Source: Syntrophobacter sp. SbD2
GTDB lineage: Bacteria > Desulfobacterota > Binatia > UBA9968
Direction: 5' to 3'
Assembly: GCA_945889495.1 (NCBI GenBank)
Contig: CAMDBU010000030.1
Location: forward strand, 1-42,900
Length of the DNA: 42,900 nucleotides
The notes under the pieces were generated by a model. The model had not been told where the DNA came from. It saw only the letters and a list, made by a program, of their open reading frames with translations, and searched no databases. Made by a program: the position numbers and the translations under genes. Position 1 is the first letter of the stretch; each line of letters begins with the position of its first letter. Positions 1,065-8,491 of this stretch are shown piece by piece.

Positions 1065-1934
1065 TCAATACTTCCCCTCCCGCCCCTCCGGCAGATAATC
1101 CTGCCACAGATGGCGCGGCTTGAAGCCCAACATGCGCCGCGCTTTGGCTGAGTCGACGCAGCTCCAGTGGCTGCCGGCGGCTTTTTTGAAGCGCGTGCCT
1201 TTGGGCAGATATTTTCGCGCTAGCTCGCGGCTCGGTTGGAACATACAATTTTTCGCCGCCGAGGCGATGAACACTTCATGGCCTTTGAACTTGGCTTCCA
1301 GCGCCAGCCGGCAAGTCGCCGCCGCGTCGCGGGCATCGATGTAGGTCCAAAAGCCGCTGGCGCGGGTCGCCGGATTGGCCCAGCGGTCGCGAAAACTCTC
1401 GTAGCTGAGATCGAAGTTGACACCGGGGAAGCGCAGGCTGCTGACGGTCATGTCGCGGTGGACGGAAACGATGGAGTCGGCGATCTGTTCACCCAAGACT
1501 TTCGACAGGCCGTAGGAGTCCTGCGGCTTGGACGGATGCTGCTCGTCCATCGGCAGATAATCCGGCGCCCAGAGTTCATGCGCATAGATGAAACCGAACG
1601 CCGCCGTGCTCGACGCCAGCACCACCCGCTTCACTTTCATGTCCGCGGCGGCGCGCAGTACATTATAAGTCGCCGACACGTTGTTGCTCAGCGTCTCGGC
1701 GTCCGGCACCCAATTAGGCGCTTGATAGGCGCCTAAGTGAACGATGCCCTGGGCGCCGCGCAGCGCTGCGAAAATATCGCCCGGCTGGCGCAAATCGACC
1801 ATCCAGGTCATGCACAGCTTTTCCCGCGGCCGGACTTTGTCGATGTTTAGAACTTGATAGCCATGCGCCAACAAATCGCGGATCACGTACTGCCCAAGAT
1901 TCCCGCTGCCACCGGTAACGACAACTTTTTTCAT
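1065..1934 (-). CDS. NAD-dependent epimerase/dehydratase (extended SDR)
   Basis: This 289-residue protein is an NAD(P)-dependent extended short-chain dehydrogenase, the family that includes nucleotide-sugar epimerases and dehydratases. The N-terminal Rossmann motif is TGGSGNLG (residues 7-14). Asp32, after the second strand, favours NAD. The catalytic Ser lies in LASST (106-110) and the YxxxK pair is Tyr141 and Lys145 in DSYGLSK. Length is at the short end for UDP-sugar epimerases. The substrate cannot be read from the sequence, and the neighbours (binding proteins, aldo/keto reductase) argue for small-molecule catabolism as much as for cell-wall sugars. It is probably the last gene of the minus-strand run that starts near 6755, 57 nt downstream of the peroxiredoxin. 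A repeat arm lies in that gap, so it could also be transcribed separately. Confidence 0.8.
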   Translation of the reverse strand: MKKVVVTGGSGNLGQYVIRDLLAHGYQVLNIDKVRPREKLCMTWMVDLRQPGDIFAALRGAQGIVHLGAYQAPNWVPDAETLSNNVSATYNVLRAAADMKVKRVVLASSTAAFGFIYAHELWAPDYLPMDEQHPSKPQDSYGLSKVLGEQIADSIVSVHRDMTVSSLRFPGVNFDLSYESFRDRWANPATRASGFWTYIDARDAAATCRLALEAKFKGHEVFIASAAKNCMFQPSRELARKYLPKGTRFKKAAGSHWSCVDSAKARRMLGFKPRHLWQDYLPEGREGKY

Positions 1935-1991: not shown

Positions 1992-2522
1992 CTATTTGCC
2001 CTGATTGATTTTCCCGATCTCCTCGACCAGTCGATCGTTGGGCACCAGCGGCTCGCCGCGCTCCAGGACCTTCTTGTAGCGCACGATGCCTTGCTTATCG
2101 ACGATGAAGTAGGAGCGCTGCGCCAGTTTGGACTGGGGATTGAACACGCCGTAGGCCTGGATGGTTTTGGCATCCGGCGCATCGCTCAGCAGCGGGAAGT
2201 TGAGCTTCAAGAAATCGGCGAACGCCTGCTGGGAAAACTTGAGGTCCGCGCTGACCCCGATCACTTCGGCGTCGACGGATTTGAACTTGTCGTAGTCATC
2301 CCGACTGGATGACAGTTCTTCAATTCATGTCTTGGTGAACTCCAGGAGGTAGAATTCCAACAAGACATTTTTCTTGCCGACAAAACTGCTGAGCATGAGC
2401 CGACCGCCCTGGGTGCTCGGCAACTCGAAGTCGGGGGCTTTGTCGCCGACCTCGATGGCTACGGCCGCCATCGGATTGGCCAATAGGAACAACATAACTA
2501 ACGCACCAAGAACTTTTTTCAT
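1992..2522 (-). CDS. Exported selenocysteine peroxiredoxin (in-frame UGA = Sec66)
   Basis: This is an AhpC/TSA-fold peroxiredoxin that reduces peroxides in the periplasm. Two reading frames, 2522-2325 and 2324-1992, are in the same phase and are separated only by a TGA at 2327-2325. Read through, they give a 176-residue protein with a signal peptide (cleavage after AVA, residue 22), the start of the fold at VGDKAPDFELP, the segment LLEFYLLEFTKT-U at 55-66, then GVSADLKFSQQAF and a normal C-terminus. The UGA occupies the place of the peroxidatic Cys in the TxxC motif. The protein contains no Cys at all, so it would be a 1-Sec enzyme. A SECIS-like hairpin follows the UGA. The start is supported by GAGG 5 nt before the ATG. 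The gene lies 31 nt downstream of a TctC gene in the same run. The alternative is a nonsense mutation, but no other lesion is present. The selA/B/C/D genes lie outside the window. Confidence 0.85.
2295..2313 (-). promoter_or_regulatory. Bacterial SECIS-like hairpin
   Basis: On the minus strand the mRNA forms a perfect 7-bp stem GTCATCC/GGATGAC closing a 5-nt loop AGTCG. Eighteen nucleotides separate the UGA (2327-2325) from the loop, and the second loop base is G. Both agree with the described bacterial SECIS rules (16-37 nt spacing, a G among the first two loop bases). It lies inside the coding sequence, as expected for SelB-dependent recoding in bacteria. Confidence 0.75.
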
Positions 2523-2553: not shown

Positions 2554-3579
2554 TTAACGTTTGGGAATTAAAATATCCTTCAACTTCGCAACTAGCGCCG
2601 GGTTCAAGTCGTACAGCCCGGCAAAGGTCTTGGCCGTGGTCGGCCCGTCGATCGGTTCCACTTCCAGCTGCGACTTGTCGGCTTCGGCGACCAACTCGCG
2701 GTCGCGAAAGGTTTTGACGAACGCTTGCTGCAATGCGCGCAAGCGCTCCGGCGGCGTGCCCGGCGCGACGGAAAATGGGAACTGATAGACATGCACGTTG
2801 TCGGCGACGCGCAGGAGCGTTTTCGCCTCTTCGGTCTTGGCGTAGTTGATCGCCAACGGGACTTTTTTCAGATCGGGATGGGACTTGAGCGTCGCTTGGA
2901 GGACGACATGAATCTTGCCGGTCTCCATCTGGCTGCGCCAGGTCACCTTGGTCGCTTGCCAGGACGCGCATAGCCCGTCGACCTCGCCGCTCTCCACCGC
3001 GATGCGCGCCTCGGCGCCGCCTTTGTAACCTTCGACCATTTCCAGCGGCAAGTTGAGCGCCGCTTTCAAAAGTTTCGGCACGTCGGACAGGCTCGTACCT
3101 GGACCGATGGAAGCGATCTTCATCGGCCGCTTGGCGTTGATCCAGTCGTCCATAGTCTTGATGCCGCTCTGGCTGCCGAAGTGGCAAGCGGTGTCGTAGG
3201 GTCCGGGGATGCCGACCCAACCGACTTTGCGGCCGTCGAGCTTGAGCGCGTCGTTGCCCATCACATGCTGGAGAATCAGCGGCGACGCCCAGGCGGCGAC
3301 GGTGAGACCATCGGGCTTGGCGCGATTGTAGAGATGATTGGCCGCGATGATGCCGCCCGCCCCCGGCATGTTCTCGACGATGCGCGTCGGATTGCCCGGC
3401 AAATACTTGCCGATATGGCGCGCCATCAGCCGCGTATACTGATCGTAAGTACCGCCGGGCGTATAACCGACGATAAACGTCAGCGTCTTGTCCTTAAACG
3501 GATCCTGCGCCCGCGCCGCAACCGAAAAACTCAGCACGATCACCGCCAAAAATAATATCGATCGAATTCTCACCAACAT
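2554..3579 (-). CDS. TctC/Bug-family periplasmic solute-binding protein
   Basis: This protein of about 341 residues belongs to the tripartite tricarboxylate transporter receptor family (TctC/Bug), which binds carboxylates and other small acids in the periplasm. It has a signal peptide ending AARAQ, then the typical GYTPGGTYDQYTRLMARHI strand-helix start, the ENMPGAGG motif and the KPDGLT motif. The longest frame starts at 3603, but GGGAGG lies 5 nt before the ATG at 3579, so I place the start there. It is a tandem paralogue of the next gene upstream, separated by 132 nt. No TctA or TctB membrane subunit is present. The downstream peroxiredoxin begins 31 nt later. Confidence 0.88.
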   Translation of the reverse strand: MLVRIRSILFLAVIVLSFSVAARAQDPFKDKTLTFIVGYTPGGTYDQYTRLMARHIGKYLPGNPTRIVENMPGAGGIIAANHLYNRAKPDGLTVAAWASPLILQHVMGNDALKLDGRKVGWVGIPGPYDTACHFGSQSGIKTMDDWINAKRPMKIASIGPGTSLSDVPKLLKAALNLPLEMVEGYKGGAEARIAVESGEVDGLCASWQATKVTWRSQMETGKIHVVLQATLKSHPDLKKVPLAINYAKTEEAKTLLRVADNVHVYQFPFSVAPGTPPERLRALQQAFVKTFRDRELVAEADKSQLEVEPIDGPTTAKTFAGLYDLNPALVAKLKDILIPKR

Positions 3580-3711
3580 CTCGCCTCCCATGAATCCTGC
3601 CAAAACCTACTACAACTCGAACCAACGGTCCATCGCCAGCGGGAATTCCGATTTCTGGAATATGGAATTTGTAATCTGTAATCGAAGTAATGGCGCCGCA
3701 ACGCGGGGCCA

Positions 3712-4728
3712 TTACTTCAGAGCATCGCGCAACTTGCCAATCAGCGCCGGCGGCAGATTGAACATGCCGGCGACCATTTTCTGCACTTCCTCGCCGGCGA
3801 TCGGCTCCAAATCGATACGCGATTTCTTGGCGTCGGCCATGAACTCGGGATCTTTCATGGTCGCGTCGAAGGCGCGCCGCAGCTGCTGCACGCGATCCTT
3901 CGGCGTGCCCGGCGGCACCACGTAGGGACGGTTGGTGATCGCCGGAATCGTCACGCCGGCTTCGATCAATTGGCGCGCGTCGTCCGACTTCGCGTAGCTG
4001 ATCGCCAGCGGCACCTTCGGCATATCGGGATGGGGCTTGGAAACCATTTGCACCACCATCACCGCGTCGCCGCTTTCGAGCGCCCGCTGCCAAGTGGATT
4101 TTATCGAGTCCCAACCCCAACAGCCGCCGGCCAGCTCGCCCGACTCGGCGGCCAGACGAATGTCCGCCGTGCCTTTGTAGCCCGACACCAGATGGATCGG
4201 CAGACCGAGCGCTGCTTGGAGAACCCTCGGCCCATCATGCACCAGATCACCCGGTGCCGTAGTACCGATCTTCACCGGCGTCTTGGCCGCCATCCAGCGC
4301 TCCATGCTGGTGATGCCGCTCGCTTTAGTAAAGGCGCAGGAGCGGTTGTCCTGCACCGGCACGCCCAAGAATTCGAAGCGGCGCGCGTCGAATTCGATAC
4401 CGGCGCCGCCCTTGAGTTGCTGCATGAACAAGCCGCCGCCGAAGTTGCCGATGGTCAAACCGTCCGGGCGCGCCACGCGGTAAACATGATTGGCCGCGAT
4501 CAAGCTGCCGGCGCCGGCCATGTTTTCGACGACGATGGACGGATTGCCGGGAATATGCCGCCCCCAGTAGCGCGCCATCGCCCGCGAGTAAGTATCGAAG
4601 CCGCCGCCGGCCGCGAAGCCAACGACGATGCGCACGGTCTTGCCTTTGAAAAATGGCTCCTGGGCGGACGTCCACGCGGGACCACTTAGAAGTATTGCGG
4701 CAAGCATCGCAGTTGCTAGCAGCGCCAT
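3712..4728 (-). CDS. TctC/Bug-family periplasmic solute-binding protein
   Basis: This 338-residue protein is a close relative of the downstream TctC gene. It has a signal peptide ending WTSAQ, GFAAGGGFDTYSRAMARYW, VVENMAGAGSLIAANHVY and ARPDGLT, all at the expected places. GGAGG lies 4 nt before the ATG. The aldo/keto reductase stop is only 12 nt upstream, so the two genes are almost certainly co-transcribed. An orphan receptor could share a TctAB pair encoded elsewhere or act as a periplasmic scavenger or sensor. The sequence does not decide. Confidence 0.9.
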   Translation of the reverse strand: MALLATAMLAAILLSGPAWTSAQEPFFKGKTVRIVVGFAAGGGFDTYSRAMARYWGRHIPGNPSIVVENMAGAGSLIAANHVYRVARPDGLTIGNFGGGLFMQQLKGGAGIEFDARRFEFLGVPVQDNRSCAFTKASGITSMERWMAAKTPVKIGTTAPGDLVHDGPRVLQAALGLPIHLVSGYKGTADIRLAAESGELAGGCWGWDSIKSTWQRALESGDAVMVVQMVSKPHPDMPKVPLAISYAKSDDARQLIEAGVTIPAITNRPYVVPPGTPKDRVQQLRRAFDATMKDPEFMADAKKSRIDLEPIAGEEVQKMVAGMFNLPPALIGKLRDALK

Positions 4729-4740
4729 AGCTCCTCCAAA

Positions 4741-5697
4741 TTACTGATTGCCAGTCAATCCAGCAATGCCGCCGAACAGCTCTTTCAAGCGCTGTTGCAC
4801 CGCCGCCGGCAGCGCCGGCCGGCACAGCGACTCGACATTGGCTTTCAAATGTTGCGGATTGCCGGTGCCGGTAAGCACCACGTCGACACCCGGCTCATGG
4901 CGGCAAAAGCGGTAGGCTGCGTCCTGAATGGAAACCGCGCCGCCGTCGCGGAGAACGAAATCCAGCGGCTCGTCCATATTGACAGCGCCGGCGGCGATGG
5001 CGCCCTTGCTGACCAGCTCGGCGCAAAGTTTTTTCAGCCGCTCCGGCTGGCTCAAGGCCCGGCGCAACGCGTAGCTGACTAGAACGCCGACACCGTTGGC
5101 CGCGGTCAACGGGAAAATATTTTCCCGCGCGCAGGGATTGAGCAGATTGAAGCCGACCATGATCACATCCCAGAGATTATCACGCACGGCGCGCTCGGCC
5201 ATCTGATGGCCGGAGTCGACGACAAAGCGCTCGGTGATCCCGACGGCGCGGATTTTTCCCTCGTCACGCAGCCGCAAGAGCGTCGGCAAATGGCGCTCCA
5301 AGGCGTTGGGATAATCCTTCGGCTCGGCGCCATGAACATGGTAGACGTCAACGTAATCGGTGGCGAGATTTTTCAAGCTCTGTTCGAGCGACCGGCGAAT
5401 CTCGCCGGCGGCATCGGCATGATCCTCCGGCACGAGGTTTTTCTTGGTCGAGATCACCAACCGGTCGCGCGCTACGCCGGCAAGCGCCTTGCCGACCACG
5501 ACCTCGGTGCCATACCACTCCGCGGTGTCGAAAAAGTTGATCCCCAGATCGACCGCCCCGCGCACATGAGCGATGACATCGCTCTCGCTACCGCTCTGCC
5601 CCTTCAACCCCGCCAACCCCAACCGGCTCGGCCCGCCACAGCCCAGCCCAGCAACGCTAACCTTCAATCCCGTACGCCCGAGTATTTTATATTCCAT
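4741..5697 (-). CDS. Aldo/keto reductase
   Basis: This 318-residue cytoplasmic NADPH-dependent oxidoreductase has the (beta/alpha)8 aldo/keto reductase fold. It begins EYKILGRTGLKVSVAGLG, with a plausible catalytic set of Asp57 and Tyr62 (FFDTAEWYG), Lys85 (STKK) and His122 (YHVHGAEP). A 348-codon frame extends up to 5787, but its first 30 codons read through the dispersed intergenic repeat at 5728-5752 (PVLSLSKG is its usual translation). The ATG at 5697 begins exactly at family-like sequence, so it is chosen. It lies between an NMT1-type binding protein (86 nt upstream) and a TctC protein (12 nt downstream), which hints at a role in metabolism of an imported carbonyl or acid. The substrate is unknown. 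Confidence 0.88.
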   Translation of the reverse strand: MEYKILGRTGLKVSVAGLGCGGPSRLGLAGLKGQSGSESDVIAHVRGAVDLGINFFDTAEWYGTEVVVGKALAGVARDRLVISTKKNLVPEDHADAAGEIRRSLEQSLKNLATDYVDVYHVHGAEPKDYPNALERHLPTLLRLRDEGKIRAVGITERFVVDSGHQMAERAVRDNLWDVIMVGFNLLNPCARENIFPLTAANGVGVLVSYALRRALSQPERLKKLCAELVSKGAIAAGAVNMDEPLDFVLRDGGAVSIQDAAYRFCRHEPGVDVVLTGTGNPQHLKANVESLCRPALPAAVQQRLKELFGGIAGLTGNQ

Positions 5698-5727
5698 GGT
5701 TCCTAGTCCGAACTTAGCGCCTTTGCG

Positions 5728-5752
5728 CCCCTTCGATAAACTCAGGACAGGC
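5728..5752 (+). repeat. CCTTCGA-CTCAGGACAGG dispersed repeat
   Basis: The sequence CCCTTCGATAAACTCAGGAC continuing into AGGCT belongs to a short dispersed element also recognisable in degenerate form near 14476-14502 and, inverted, at 25769-25795. It lies immediately upstream of the aldo/keto reductase start and creates a spurious N-terminal extension in the longest reading frame. Confidence 0.6.
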
Positions 5753-5783
5753 TTTGCGAGAGAAAATCCGATTCCGAAACCAA

Positions 5784-6755
5784 TCACCGCAGCCCCTCCG
5801 CCGCTTTGCGCGCAAAGCTGAAATCAAAAATCCGCTCCGGCGCCACCTGCGGCGGCGGCTTCAATCGCTGGGCGGCGAGCTGGATCATTTCGCGCTGCAA
5901 CTTTTCGTCGACCACGCCGTTGGCGAGGTAGCCTTGCGTCGCGGCTTCGTAGGCGCGCTCGGCGAAGCGCTCGCGCTCTTTGCCCAGGTCGACGTAGTTT
6001 TTCTTGGTCAAAACTTCCAGGCCGTACTTCCTGTCGCTCTTGAGCAGGCGCACCGCGCGCAGCGTCGCGCGCACGACTTTGGCCACGGCTTCAGGCTTTT
6101 CCGTCAGCACCGCTTTGGTCGCGGTGAGACCGCCTTGGACGGCGCGATAGTAGTCGGCGCCGGCGGCGATTTTGCGGAAGCCCTCGTCCTGGGCGAGGAA
6201 GGTGTTGGGGAATTGCAGCATCACCACGTCGATGACGCCGGCGCGGAGCGAAATGAACGACACGTCGCCGCCGCCGAGTGAAAGAAAGGTCACTTGGTCG
6301 ATGGGAATTTGGTTGGCCGTGAGAATCTGCCGGATGATAATCTCCGGTAAACCGCCGACGCCGCCGTAGCCGATCTTTTTGCCGCGCAGCTGTTGGATGT
6401 TGGTGATGCTCGCATGGCCGATCAGATCGAAGGATGGCCGCTCGCTCATGGCGAGAATAACTCGCACGTCGGCGCCGCTCACCGCCGCGCTCACCACGGT
6501 GCCCGTCGCCGTGCCAAAATCGATGCTGCCGCCGAGCATGCCCTGCACGGTCAAGCTGGCTTTGAAAAGAATGATCTCGGCGTCGACCCCTTCGTCGCGA
6601 AAAAAACCGCGCTCGCGCGCCACCCAAAACGGCAAGTCCAGCGTGCCGCGGGAGACCACCGCGATGCGCACCGGCAAGAGCTTGGCGCTCTTTTCCGCCG
6701 CCCATGCGGAACCGCACAACAACGCCAAGTTGCAGAGAATCAGCAGCGCGCGCAT
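5784..6755 (-). CDS. NMT1/THI5-like ABC-type solute-binding protein
   Basis: This 323-residue periplasmic protein belongs to the SsuA/TauA/ThiY (NMT1) superfamily, whose members deliver sulfonates, pyrimidines, aromatics and similar ligands to ABC importers. The signal peptide ends AWA. The family pattern is clear: PFWVARERGFFRDEGVDAEII, a mid-protein LRGKKIGYGGVGG loop, then a long helical C-terminus. The frame opens at a GTG at 6767, but GAGGG lies 5 nt before the ATG at 6755, which I prefer. It appears to be the first gene of the minus-strand run down to 1065 and is divergent from the cupin gene at 6936. No permease or ATPase is adjacent. Confidence 0.87.
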   Translation of the reverse strand: MRALLILCNLALLCGSAWAAEKSAKLLPVRIAVVSRGTLDLPFWVARERGFFRDEGVDAEIILFKASLTVQGMLGGSIDFGTATGTVVSAAVSGADVRVILAMSERPSFDLIGHASITNIQQLRGKKIGYGGVGGLPEIIIRQILTANQIPIDQVTFLSLGGGDVSFISLRAGVIDVVMLQFPNTFLAQDEGFRKIAAGADYYRAVQGGLTATKAVLTEKPEAVAKVVRATLRAVRLLKSDRKYGLEVLTKKNYVDLGKERERFAERAYEAATQGYLANGVVDEKLQREMIQLAAQRLKPPPQVAPERIFDFSFARKAAEGLR

Positions 6756-6869
6756 TTTCACCCTCACCCACCCATTGATCTTATGATCGTGGCACCGGAG
6801 AACCGGATTACCGCACAGCGTTTATAGTGCCGCGCTGGAGCGCAGTCAAATCATGCGCACCGGTTGCCG

Positions 6870-6898
6870 TTGACGCTCGCCCCAGGACTTTGTTAATG
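6870..6898 (+). promoter_or_regulatory. Possible sigma-70-type promoter for the cupin gene
   Basis: TTGACG at 6870-6875 is a good -35 box. A weak -10 lies 16-17 nt downstream (GTTAAT or TTAATG, 6892-6898), about 37 nt before the cupin ATG. The spacing is right but the -10 match is poor, so this is only a candidate. Confidence 0.3.
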
Positions 6899-6935
6899 CT
6901 CTTACCAGCTGGTTGAAACACAAGGAGGATGAACC

Positions 6936-7436
6936 ATGAGTACTACGCTTGAATCGTTCGCGGCGGATGTGAAACGGATTCTTACCGCGGACCCGAGCCG
7001 CACCGGCCGGGAAAAAGTCCGCGACCTGGTCCAGGAAGCGCTCAAAGATCACGAGTTCATCGCGACCTACATCAACGACAACACGCCCGACCGCCAGGTG
7101 ATCTACGAAGATGCCGAGTTGGGTTTCTGCGTCTGCGCCCATGTCAATCGCGAAGCGCGCGAAGCCAATCCCCATGACCACGGCAGCTCCTGGGCGATCT
7201 ACGGCCAGGCCTGGGGCGAAACCCAAATGAGCGATTGGGAAATCCTCGAAGCCGCCGCCGAAGGCAAGCCGGGCAAAGTAAAGCGCGGCCAAGTCTACAT
7301 GCTCAAACCGGGCATGGCACATATTTACCATGAAGGCGATGTCCACTCGCCCAAACGCGAAGCCGCCACTGGGCTATTGCGCATCGAAGGCAAGAACACC
7401 ACCAAGCTGAAACGCTATCCGTACAAAGCCGTGTAG
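6936..7436 (+). CDS. Small cupin-fold protein (putative metal-dependent)
   Basis: This 166-residue cytoplasmic protein has a single predicted cupin barrel. The first metal-binding-like motif is NPHDHGSSWAIYG with His80 and His82. The second is PGMAHIYHEGDVHSP with His129, His132 and His137. The arrangement resembles cysteine-dioxygenase-like or other single-domain cupins, but I cannot name a substrate. AAGGAGG precedes the ATG by 8 nt. The gene is followed 12 nt later by an NMT1-type binding protein on the same strand, so the two are likely one transcript and may act on the same ligand. Confidence 0.75.
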   Translation: MSTTLESFAADVKRILTADPSRTGREKVRDLVQEALKDHEFIATYINDNTPDRQVIYEDAELGFCVCAHVNREAREANPHDHGSSWAIYGQAWGETQMSDWEILEAAAEGKPGKVKRGQVYMLKPGMAHIYHEGDVHSPKREAATGLLRIEGKNTTKLKRYPYKAV

Positions 7437-7447
7437 CGGCTGGCTCC

Positions 7448-8491
7448 ATGCAAAATATAATCAGTGGTAAGCCGCCTGTCTGGTCGCGCTTCATCTTCGC
7501 CGTGGCTTTTGTGCTGGTCGGCGGCGCCGTGCCAAGGCCGCTTCTTCACGCCGCGGCCGCGCCCACTCGCGTGAGCATCGCCTACCCGTCGCCCAGCCCG
7601 CGGGTGGCGCCGCTGTGGGTCGCTCAAGACATGGATTTTTTTGGCAAGTATGGCGTGCGCCCGCAGATCGTCCTGGTGCGCAACAATCAAATGCTCAGCG
7701 CCGGCCTGATCTCCGGCGATCTCGAAGTCGGCTACACCGGCGGTACCACCGTGCTCGGCGCCGCCGCCGCTGGCGCGGAATTGAAAATGGTCGGCGGCTT
7801 CATCAGCCGCGGCCGCGGTTTTCTCACCGTCAAGCCGGACATCAAAAAGCCCGCTGACCTGGTCGGCAAACGTTTCGGCGTGCAAAGCATCGGCGGGACG
7901 ATCTGGATGTACGCCATGCTGACGCTGGAACATTTGGGCCTCGATGTCGCCCGCGACAAGATTCAGCTTTTAGTGGTCGGCGATCAGACCGTCATGGTGC
8001 GGGCGTTAGAAGCCGGCACCGTCGACGCCGCGGTGATGACCACCCGAGCCTATAGCCTGGCCCTCAAGCAAAAGGGCTTCAACGTCATGGCCGAAGTATT
8101 TCCGGCCATGTCGTCCACCGGCATCGTCGCGCGCAAGAATTTTATCGAGAGAAATCAATCCACCATGGAGAACGTCATCAAAGCGCTCATCGAAGCCGAG
8201 TATTTCATCCTCGCGCCCAGCGGCAGAGCGCACACGGTGAAGACGATCATCAATCGCTTGCGCCTCACCGACCCGAATCTGGCCGAGGAAGGCTACGCCG
8301 ATGTGGTCAAAGAGTTTGACGCCAAACCTTATCCATCGTTGGAAGGATTGAAAAACATGCAGCGGCTGATGGCCATGCAAAACCCCAAACTCGCCGACAT
8401 CAACACCGCCAGCATGATCGACAGCTCGTTCATTAAAAAGCTCGACGACAGCGGCTTCTTCGCCCAAATGCAGGCGCGCTACCGCGAATAG
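7448..8491 (+). CDS. NMT1/THI5-like solute-binding protein
   Basis: This 347-residue protein has a long signal sequence with its hydrophobic core at about residues 15-38. The mature part opens VSIAYPSPSPRVAPLWVAQD, followed by FFGKYGVRPQIV and the loop DLVGKRFGVQSIGG. It ends with the paralogue signature IDSSFIKKLDDSGFFAQM. No clear Shine-Dalgarno precedes the ATG at 7448, which is only 12 nt after the cupin stop. Translation may be coupled, or the true start may be slightly further inside. It converges on the MFS gene with 12 nt between the stops. The transport partners are absent. Confidence 0.87.
   Translation: MQNIISGKPPVWSRFIFAVAFVLVGGAVPRPLLHAAAAPTRVSIAYPSPSPRVAPLWVAQDMDFFGKYGVRPQIVLVRNNQMLSAGLISGDLEVGYTGGTTVLGAAAAGAELKMVGGFISRGRGFLTVKPDIKKPADLVGKRFGVQSIGGTIWMYAMLTLEHLGLDVARDKIQLLVVGDQTVMVRALEAGTVDAAVMTTRAYSLALKQKGFNVMAEVFPAMSSTGIVARKNFIERNQSTMENVIKALIEAEYFILAPSGRAHTVKTIINRLRLTDPNLAEEGYADVVKEFDAKPYPSLEGLKNMQRLMAMQNPKLADINTASMIDSSFIKKLDDSGFFAQMQARYRE

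Follow-up and report, generated by a model that had tools for sequence, protein, structure and literature searches.

The window, the whole stretch of 42,900 nucleotides from Syntrophobacter sp. SbD2 analysed here, contains an AhpC/TSA frame interrupted by one TGA, at the very position where a peroxiredoxin carries its peroxidatic cysteine. The locus raises the question of whether this codon is read as selenocysteine (Sec), and, if so, of what a selenoprotein that bears a signal-peptide-like N-terminus and no cysteine may do, and of what may keep it reduced.

Gene structure

The features of the locus are collected in Table 1. When TGA is read as U, a single open frame is obtained, where residue 66 is U and no cysteine is found among the 176 residues of the chain; the TGA at 2327-2325 is the sole interruption of the AhpC/TSA frame. 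A GAGG sequence, recognized by eye, lies five bases 5' of the ATG. The original prediction had joined two in-phase frames through a single TGA at the place of the peroxidatic cysteine, and had described a product devoid of cysteine: both statements are borne out, and the coordinates given for the gene, 1992-2522, are correct. Its strand had not been indicated: the gene is encoded by the minus strand, while the plus-strand reading of the same interval is not open and contains internal stops. As also anticipated, ordinary ORF calling under the standard code splits the gene into two pieces, at 2325-2522 (65 aa) and 1992-2264 (90 aa, with a GTG start); selenoprotein counts in such genomes may therefore be too low. 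When the window was scanned for other genes containing one TGA, only ordinary ORFs running past their TGA end were seen, by eye. No Rfam family matches the window at gathering thresholds, and no tRNA was found in it.

Table 1. Features of the Sec-peroxiredoxin locus and its neighbours, in window coordinates.
Feature	Position	Strand	Description
Sec-peroxiredoxin gene	1992..2522	minus	176 codons + TAG; ATG at 2522-2520; PF00578, 116 bits
Signal-peptide-like N-terminus	2457..2522	minus	residues 1-22, ending in AVA; by eye
Sec-UGA codon	2325..2327	minus	residue 66, peroxidatic Cys position; from alignments to homologues
bSECIS candidate	2295..2313	minus	7-bp stem, loop AGUCG, 18 nt from UGA to loop
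Arg136 codon	2115..2117	minus	position of the conserved peroxiredoxin active-site Arg; 6/6 rows
TAG stop of the Sec-peroxiredoxin gene	1994-1992	minus	
Upstream neighbour	2554..3603	minus	TctC-type substrate-binding protein; PF03401, 50.2 bits; no evident link
Downstream neighbour	1065..1934	minus	NAD-dependent epimerase family; PF01370, 78 bits; no evident link

Conservation of the TGA codon

Homologues were collected, as best-match loci, from public genome contigs, from 395 genomes of the phylum, from the AhpC/TSA genes of the window's own genome and from 25 genomes of its family. For the site count, 84 loci (L021-L104) were searched for domains scoring at least 25 bits: the resulting 80 matches were reduced to 73 by removing identical cores, as in the case of L081, which encodes the same protein as L023, or of L062, which is the window again. 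The aligned site features TGA in 39 of the 73 distinct homologues, cysteine in 34 and any other residue in none; six of the 34 cysteine rows correspond to CxxC or UxxC proteins, aligned through their second cysteine. The alignment to cysteine homologues, which the original prediction had proposed as a check, is thus in agreement with Sec at a cysteine site.

In a tree built from the 62 sequences scoring at least 60 bits, the nine closest orthologues, including the window, form a clade, here called A (support 0.934). TGA is present in all nine, and no cysteine member was found among these nine distinct sequences; the 18 sister sequences and a deeper one (L104) also feature TGA without exception. 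Overall identity of the window protein to the eight other members of clade A is 64-76%; the part following the TGA is 70-76% identical, the part preceding it, which includes the variable signal-peptide-like stretch, 48-62%. Within the clade, the third codon position is the most variable on both sides of the TGA. As for taxonomy, L023 is labelled as Deltaproteobacteria, L021 and L022 as Betaproteobacteria; the L023 protein and two tested DNA stretches match a genome of the same family as the window.

SECIS-like hairpin

Bacterial SECIS elements are described, in the part of PMC13188914 dealing with them, by a loop of 3-9 nt with a G in the first two positions, a stem of 4-16 bp, a spacing of 16-37 nt and an MFE of -7.5 or below. 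The hairpin following the TGA lies within these constraints (loop of 5 nt, stem of 7 bp, spacing of 18 nt); its MFE is -14.3 kcal/mol over 48 nt, with a z of -2.79 against dinucleotide shuffles. Covariation was counted in the nine clade A orthologues; the sister hairpins were aligned and left out of the count. Three of the seven pairs vary, each showing one two-sided change which keeps the pair, in one sequence apiece, a level of covariation reached by none of 500 shuffles. As read by eye from the codons, none of these changes alters an encoded residue, on either side of the stem. The outermost pair is broken in two of the nine orthologues.

Folding was also compared to a codon-resampling control. 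Relative to this control, folding is more stable in the U genes (mean z -1.32; p<0.05 in 13 out of 39), whereas cysteine homologues have a mean z of 0.00 (p<0.05 in 2 out of 34). Taken singly, four of the nine clade A hairpins score p<0.05, that of the window having p = 0.037. The scan for a SECIS element, another of the checks initially proposed, led therefore to a covarying hairpin which fits the bacterial model.

Selenocysteine machinery

The window belongs to a draft assembly of 5.64 Mb in 239 contigs, in which the complete set of genes named by the original prediction was found over the respective cut-offs: a tRNA-Sec is located on contig C78 (73.1 bits), while selA (614 bits), selB (411 bits) and selD (377 bits) are adjacent, in a row, on C26. 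One in-frame TGA is present in selD; selA and selB contain none, indicating that the genetic code is not generally changed.

Within the family, selB is found over the cut-off in 20 of the 25 genomes. In the other five no selB scores over it, and each of them has TGA-bearing AhpC/TSA matches: a clade A gene in G198, sister genes in G407 and G416 (in the latter, selB is matched in part, at 203 bits), and more distant ones in G404 and G415. We assume that these selB genes are missing because of gaps in the draft assemblies. Co-occurrence with selB is not discriminating: in 40 genomes of the phylum, hand-picked from the 395, selB scores over the cut-off in 14 of the 16 with a TGA-bearing match and in 22 of the 24 without one, among the matches listed.

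Decoding of the TGA

Judging from the comparisons described above, UGA66 is almost certainly decoded as Sec. A cysteine peroxiredoxin gene, turned into a pseudogene by mutation of TGC or TGT to TGA or made to look like one by a misread base, would need a single base change in a draft assembly of 239 contigs; the same TGA is nevertheless present in all eight other distinct orthologues, at 64-76% identity, the C-terminal part is conserved and the hairpin covaries, so that this explanation has a negligible probability. It is very improbable, too, that a suppressor or an altered code inserts some other residue at UGA, or that UGA acts as a true stop producing a short protein. Nothing specific speaks for either, the 65-residue upstream piece simply being open on its own, and the full Sec machinery, the cysteine found at this site in the cysteine homologues and the SECIS-like hairpin all argue against both possibilities; the absence of internal TGA codons from selA and selB is a further argument against an altered code. 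Conservation among the orthologues, covariation of the hairpin and the presence of the Sec machinery thus led us to reject the pseudogene, sequencing-error and altered-code readings. The product is a true selenoprotein and belongs to a known group, that of the TxxU Sec-peroxiredoxins.

Protein family and active-site motif

The score of the joined protein against PF00578 (AhpC/TSA) is to be compared to a cut-off of 26 bits. Sec-containing peroxiredoxins, including PrxU of Eubacterium acidaminophilum, share with the window protein the AhpC/TSA domain (PF00578/COG1225), Sec at the peroxidatic position and the TxxU motif. The window protein differs from them by the signal-peptide-like N-terminus, the lack of cysteine and the leucine in the motif, and scores 66.7 bits against the NCBIfam model peroxi_PrxU (NF040737), below the equivalog cut-off of 270.

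The best relatives of solved structure are Bcp-type peroxiredoxins (2ywn/4g2e, 3hjp) and the mycobacterial Rv2238c (AhpE; 1xvw, 5id2), with E values from 1.9e-26, for the closest one, 2ywn, to 4.9e-22. The window protein aligns to them over the domain, featuring Sec where 2ywn and 5id2 have cysteine and 3hjp, as deposited, has serine. All six rows of the alignment agree at Thr63, at the Sec/Cys column and at Arg136; the Arg136 column is, we presume, that of the catalytic active-site arginine of peroxiredoxins. An AlphaFold model, obtained from six sequences, is poor (mean pLDDT 64.6, pTM 0.66).

Compared to the PxxxTxxC/U motif, the window protein keeps T and U and replaces proline by leucine (LxxxTxxU). 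Throughout clade A the proline position is occupied by valine, in eight cases, or by leucine, in the window, and threonine is found at -3 in all nine. Proline is also absent from the 19 other TGA sequences (the 18 sister ones and L104), where the residue at -3 is Ser in 11, Asp in four, Asn in two, Ala in one and Gly in one. With leucine at the proline position, canonical peroxiredoxin chemistry is not guaranteed, and, the proline being lost, a different redox role is conceivable. The mature part is devoid of cysteine in 9/9 clade A members and in 17 of the 19 other TGA sequences, the two exceptions being the tandem pair on contig C177, with a cysteine at Sec+3. Among more distant members of the phylum, three loci (L030, L040, L045) encode exported-looking TGA peroxiredoxins, whose matched core lacks both cysteine and the motif proline; the exported, cysteine-free type may therefore extend beyond the family of the window.

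Probable export

The N-terminus consists of MKK, a hydrophobic stretch and AVA, followed by IEVGDKAPDF, and its likeness to a signal peptide was recognized by eye; hydrophobic N-termini are also found in the orthologues. Of the signal peptide originally predicted, a signal-peptide-like N-terminus stands, while export itself is judged by inspection: location of the protein in the periplasm is very probable on these features. Taking family and N-terminus together, we are fairly confident that the gene would encode an exported Sec-peroxiredoxin.

The best non-TGA match among 148 genomes of the class (L110; 110 bits, 45% identical) is an exported-looking protein with cysteine at the site. In a related family of genomes, four loci (L111, L112, L114, L115) encode exported-looking Sec peroxiredoxins, marked by DFTPGU or DFTSGU and containing cysteine elsewhere in the chain.

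Genomic neighbourhood

In the following, "TlpA-like" is our name for products matching Pfam AhpC-TSA, Redoxin and Thioredoxin_8 and containing WCxxC (three of the four loci were scanned), and "CcdA" for those matching Pfam DsbD_TM. A TlpA-like gene is located directly downstream of the peroxiredoxin gene in four of the nine clade A loci (L021, L022, L078, L079), its start codon ranging from an ATGA overlap to 16 nt past the first base of the peroxiredoxin stop codon. It is followed by CcdA in two of the nine, L078 (PF02683, 56.2 bits) and L079 (motif only, at the contig end). Cytochrome c' (PF01322) is the next gene in two other loci (L027, L080); neither neighbour is found in the remaining three of the nine (the window, L077, L023). 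Near the 19 other TGA sequences, a TlpA-like motif is found once and a CXXCH[KR] motif in nine cases, two of which share one cytochrome, some of the flanks being short.

On contig C3 of the window's genome, a gene whose product shares 61% identity with the L079 TlpA overlaps a CcdA gene, the latter being the sole DsbD_TM match of the genome at E<=0.001. The window itself, from 2554 to 8491 and beyond, contains many TctC-/NMT1-like substrate-binding proteins, the TctC neighbour being identified by Pfam and the others by eye.

Proposed function and reductant

According to the mechanism we propose, the ribosome would read UGA66 as Sec by means of SelB and tRNA-Sec, guided by the downstream hairpin, and the protein, a 1-Sec peroxiredoxin, would be exported to the periplasm, where its selenol would attack peroxide, yielding a selenenic acid. 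As a resolving cysteine is not available, reduction must come from a partner: the likeliest one would be a TlpA-like periplasmic thioredoxin, kept reduced across the membrane by CcdA. Family and gene linkage suggest that such a CcdA-TlpA-Sec-peroxiredoxin electron relay may operate in the cell envelope. The protein probably acts as a peroxidase, while for TlpA-CcdA as its reductant the chances appear about even. A comparable cell-envelope peroxiredoxin system, composed of ScsB, a DsbD-superfamily transporter, with TlpA and a periplasmic peroxiredoxin, was reportedly described by Cho et al. in 2012. An envelope peroxiredoxin, a TlpA-like reductant and a DsbD-superfamily transporter would be common to both; the locus under study differs in having Sec in place of cysteine, no resolving cysteine, a CcdA-type transporter and partners linked in some of the relatives only.

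The motif proline, absent from 9/9 clade A members and from 19/19 of the other TGA sequences, could instead indicate a Sec redox protein with the peroxiredoxin fold which is not mainly a peroxidase, such as a thiol/selenol reductase or a sensor for envelope cytochrome c or metal chemistry. The replacement of the motif threonine in those 19 sequences, by Ser in 11 and by Asp, Asn, Ala or Gly in eight, is consistent with such a role, as are cytochrome c' beside two of the nine clade A genes and the CXXCH[KR] motif beside nine of the 19 others; yet threonine is kept at -3 in the whole of clade A, Arg136 is present in 6/6 rows and the nearest structures are those of peroxiredoxins (2ywn, E 1.9e-26), which makes this role unlikely. 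If the protein is an exported Sec-peroxiredoxin, it may also draw its electrons from a source other than TlpA-CcdA: cytochrome c', small thiols or other Sec thioredoxin-fold proteins of the genome. The lack of a TlpA neighbour in five of the nine orthologues, including the window, and the presence of cytochrome c' in two render such a source conceivable, if less than probable, given that TlpA is directly downstream in the other four and that a TlpA-CcdA pair is encoded in the window's genome.

Going back to the CcdA-TlpA-driven peroxidase, we tentatively regard the clade, with a probability approaching an even one, as a lineage of exported peroxiredoxins that use Sec only, contain no cysteine, have lost the motif proline and are driven by a membrane relay from CcdA to TlpA, in a genome carrying a set of Sec proteins of the peroxiredoxin fold, several of them exported. 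If so, peroxide defence in an oxidising compartment would run on selenium, and a partner protein, not an internal thiol, would reduce the selenenic acid.

Relation to known selenoproteins

Sec-peroxiredoxins are long established, as 43 genes were found in the Sargasso Sea set (PMC1088965), and the family is also listed in PMC13188914 and PMC9312934. A role in peroxide defence is suggested here by family membership; if exported and dependent on selenium, such defence had been considered notable in this kind of bacterium by the original prediction. Since the family has long been known, the dependence on selenium is not new as such; the exported-looking, cysteine-free form is unusual. Features setting the window protein apart from known Sec-peroxiredoxins are the signal-peptide-like N-terminus, the absence of cysteine, leucine or valine in place of the motif proline and the membership in a clade where no cysteine form was found.

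In the passages of PMC1088965 devoted to Sec-peroxiredoxins, nothing is said of the periplasm, of secretion or of TlpA. PMC13188914 reports Thermodesulfobacteriota rich in Sec, as well as a selenoprotein of the TlpA family that contains UGC; in the portions considered, including sections 9-10, periplasm, signal peptide, secreted and CcdA are not mentioned. No exported, cysteine-free Sec-peroxiredoxin linked to TlpA-CcdA emerged from the portions considered of PMC2757866 and PMC7539508, nor from the literature matches at large, most of which were represented by the title or the start of the abstract. Aerobes are said to keep Sec rarely, because the selenol is so readily oxidised (PMC13188914): an exported Sec peroxidase without a resolving thiol would thus make it possible to test by what means a selenol stays reduced once it has left the cytoplasm.

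Other selenocysteine genes in the genome

The genome of the window (G000) looks rich in selenoproteins. One in-frame TGA is present in 12 of its 21 AhpC/TSA matches. Judging by context, it occupies the peroxidatic place in six of them: the window gene, two on C177, two on C29 and one on C16. The context is UxxC in four others and TUPPF, which we take to be deiodinase-like, in one, while in the last one, on C6, it is not evidently catalytic. The four UxxC genes encode Prx-like Sec proteins, which belong to the same Pfam family as the window protein (PF00578) and have a Sec active site; unlike them, the window protein features TxxU and not a thioredoxin-like UxxC site.

Apart from the window gene, there are thus eleven TGA-bearing matches. 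Ten look catalytic (L057-L060, L063, L066, L068, L069, L071, L075) and are located on contigs C29, C16, C89, C177, C151, C173 and C114. The eleventh (L072, at C6:64870-65268) contains its single TGA within YHPNUAAS, which may reflect a broken gene, an error or else an unusual place for Sec. Sec genes are paired at two sites. At C89:14459-15632 (L060, L075) a deiodinase-like gene (ITUPPF) and a UxxC Prx-like one form a convergent Sec pair; at C177:1053-2245 (L063) two exported-looking Sec-peroxiredoxins, with a cysteine three residues after Sec (UxxC), are arranged in tandem, adjoining a CXXCH protein.
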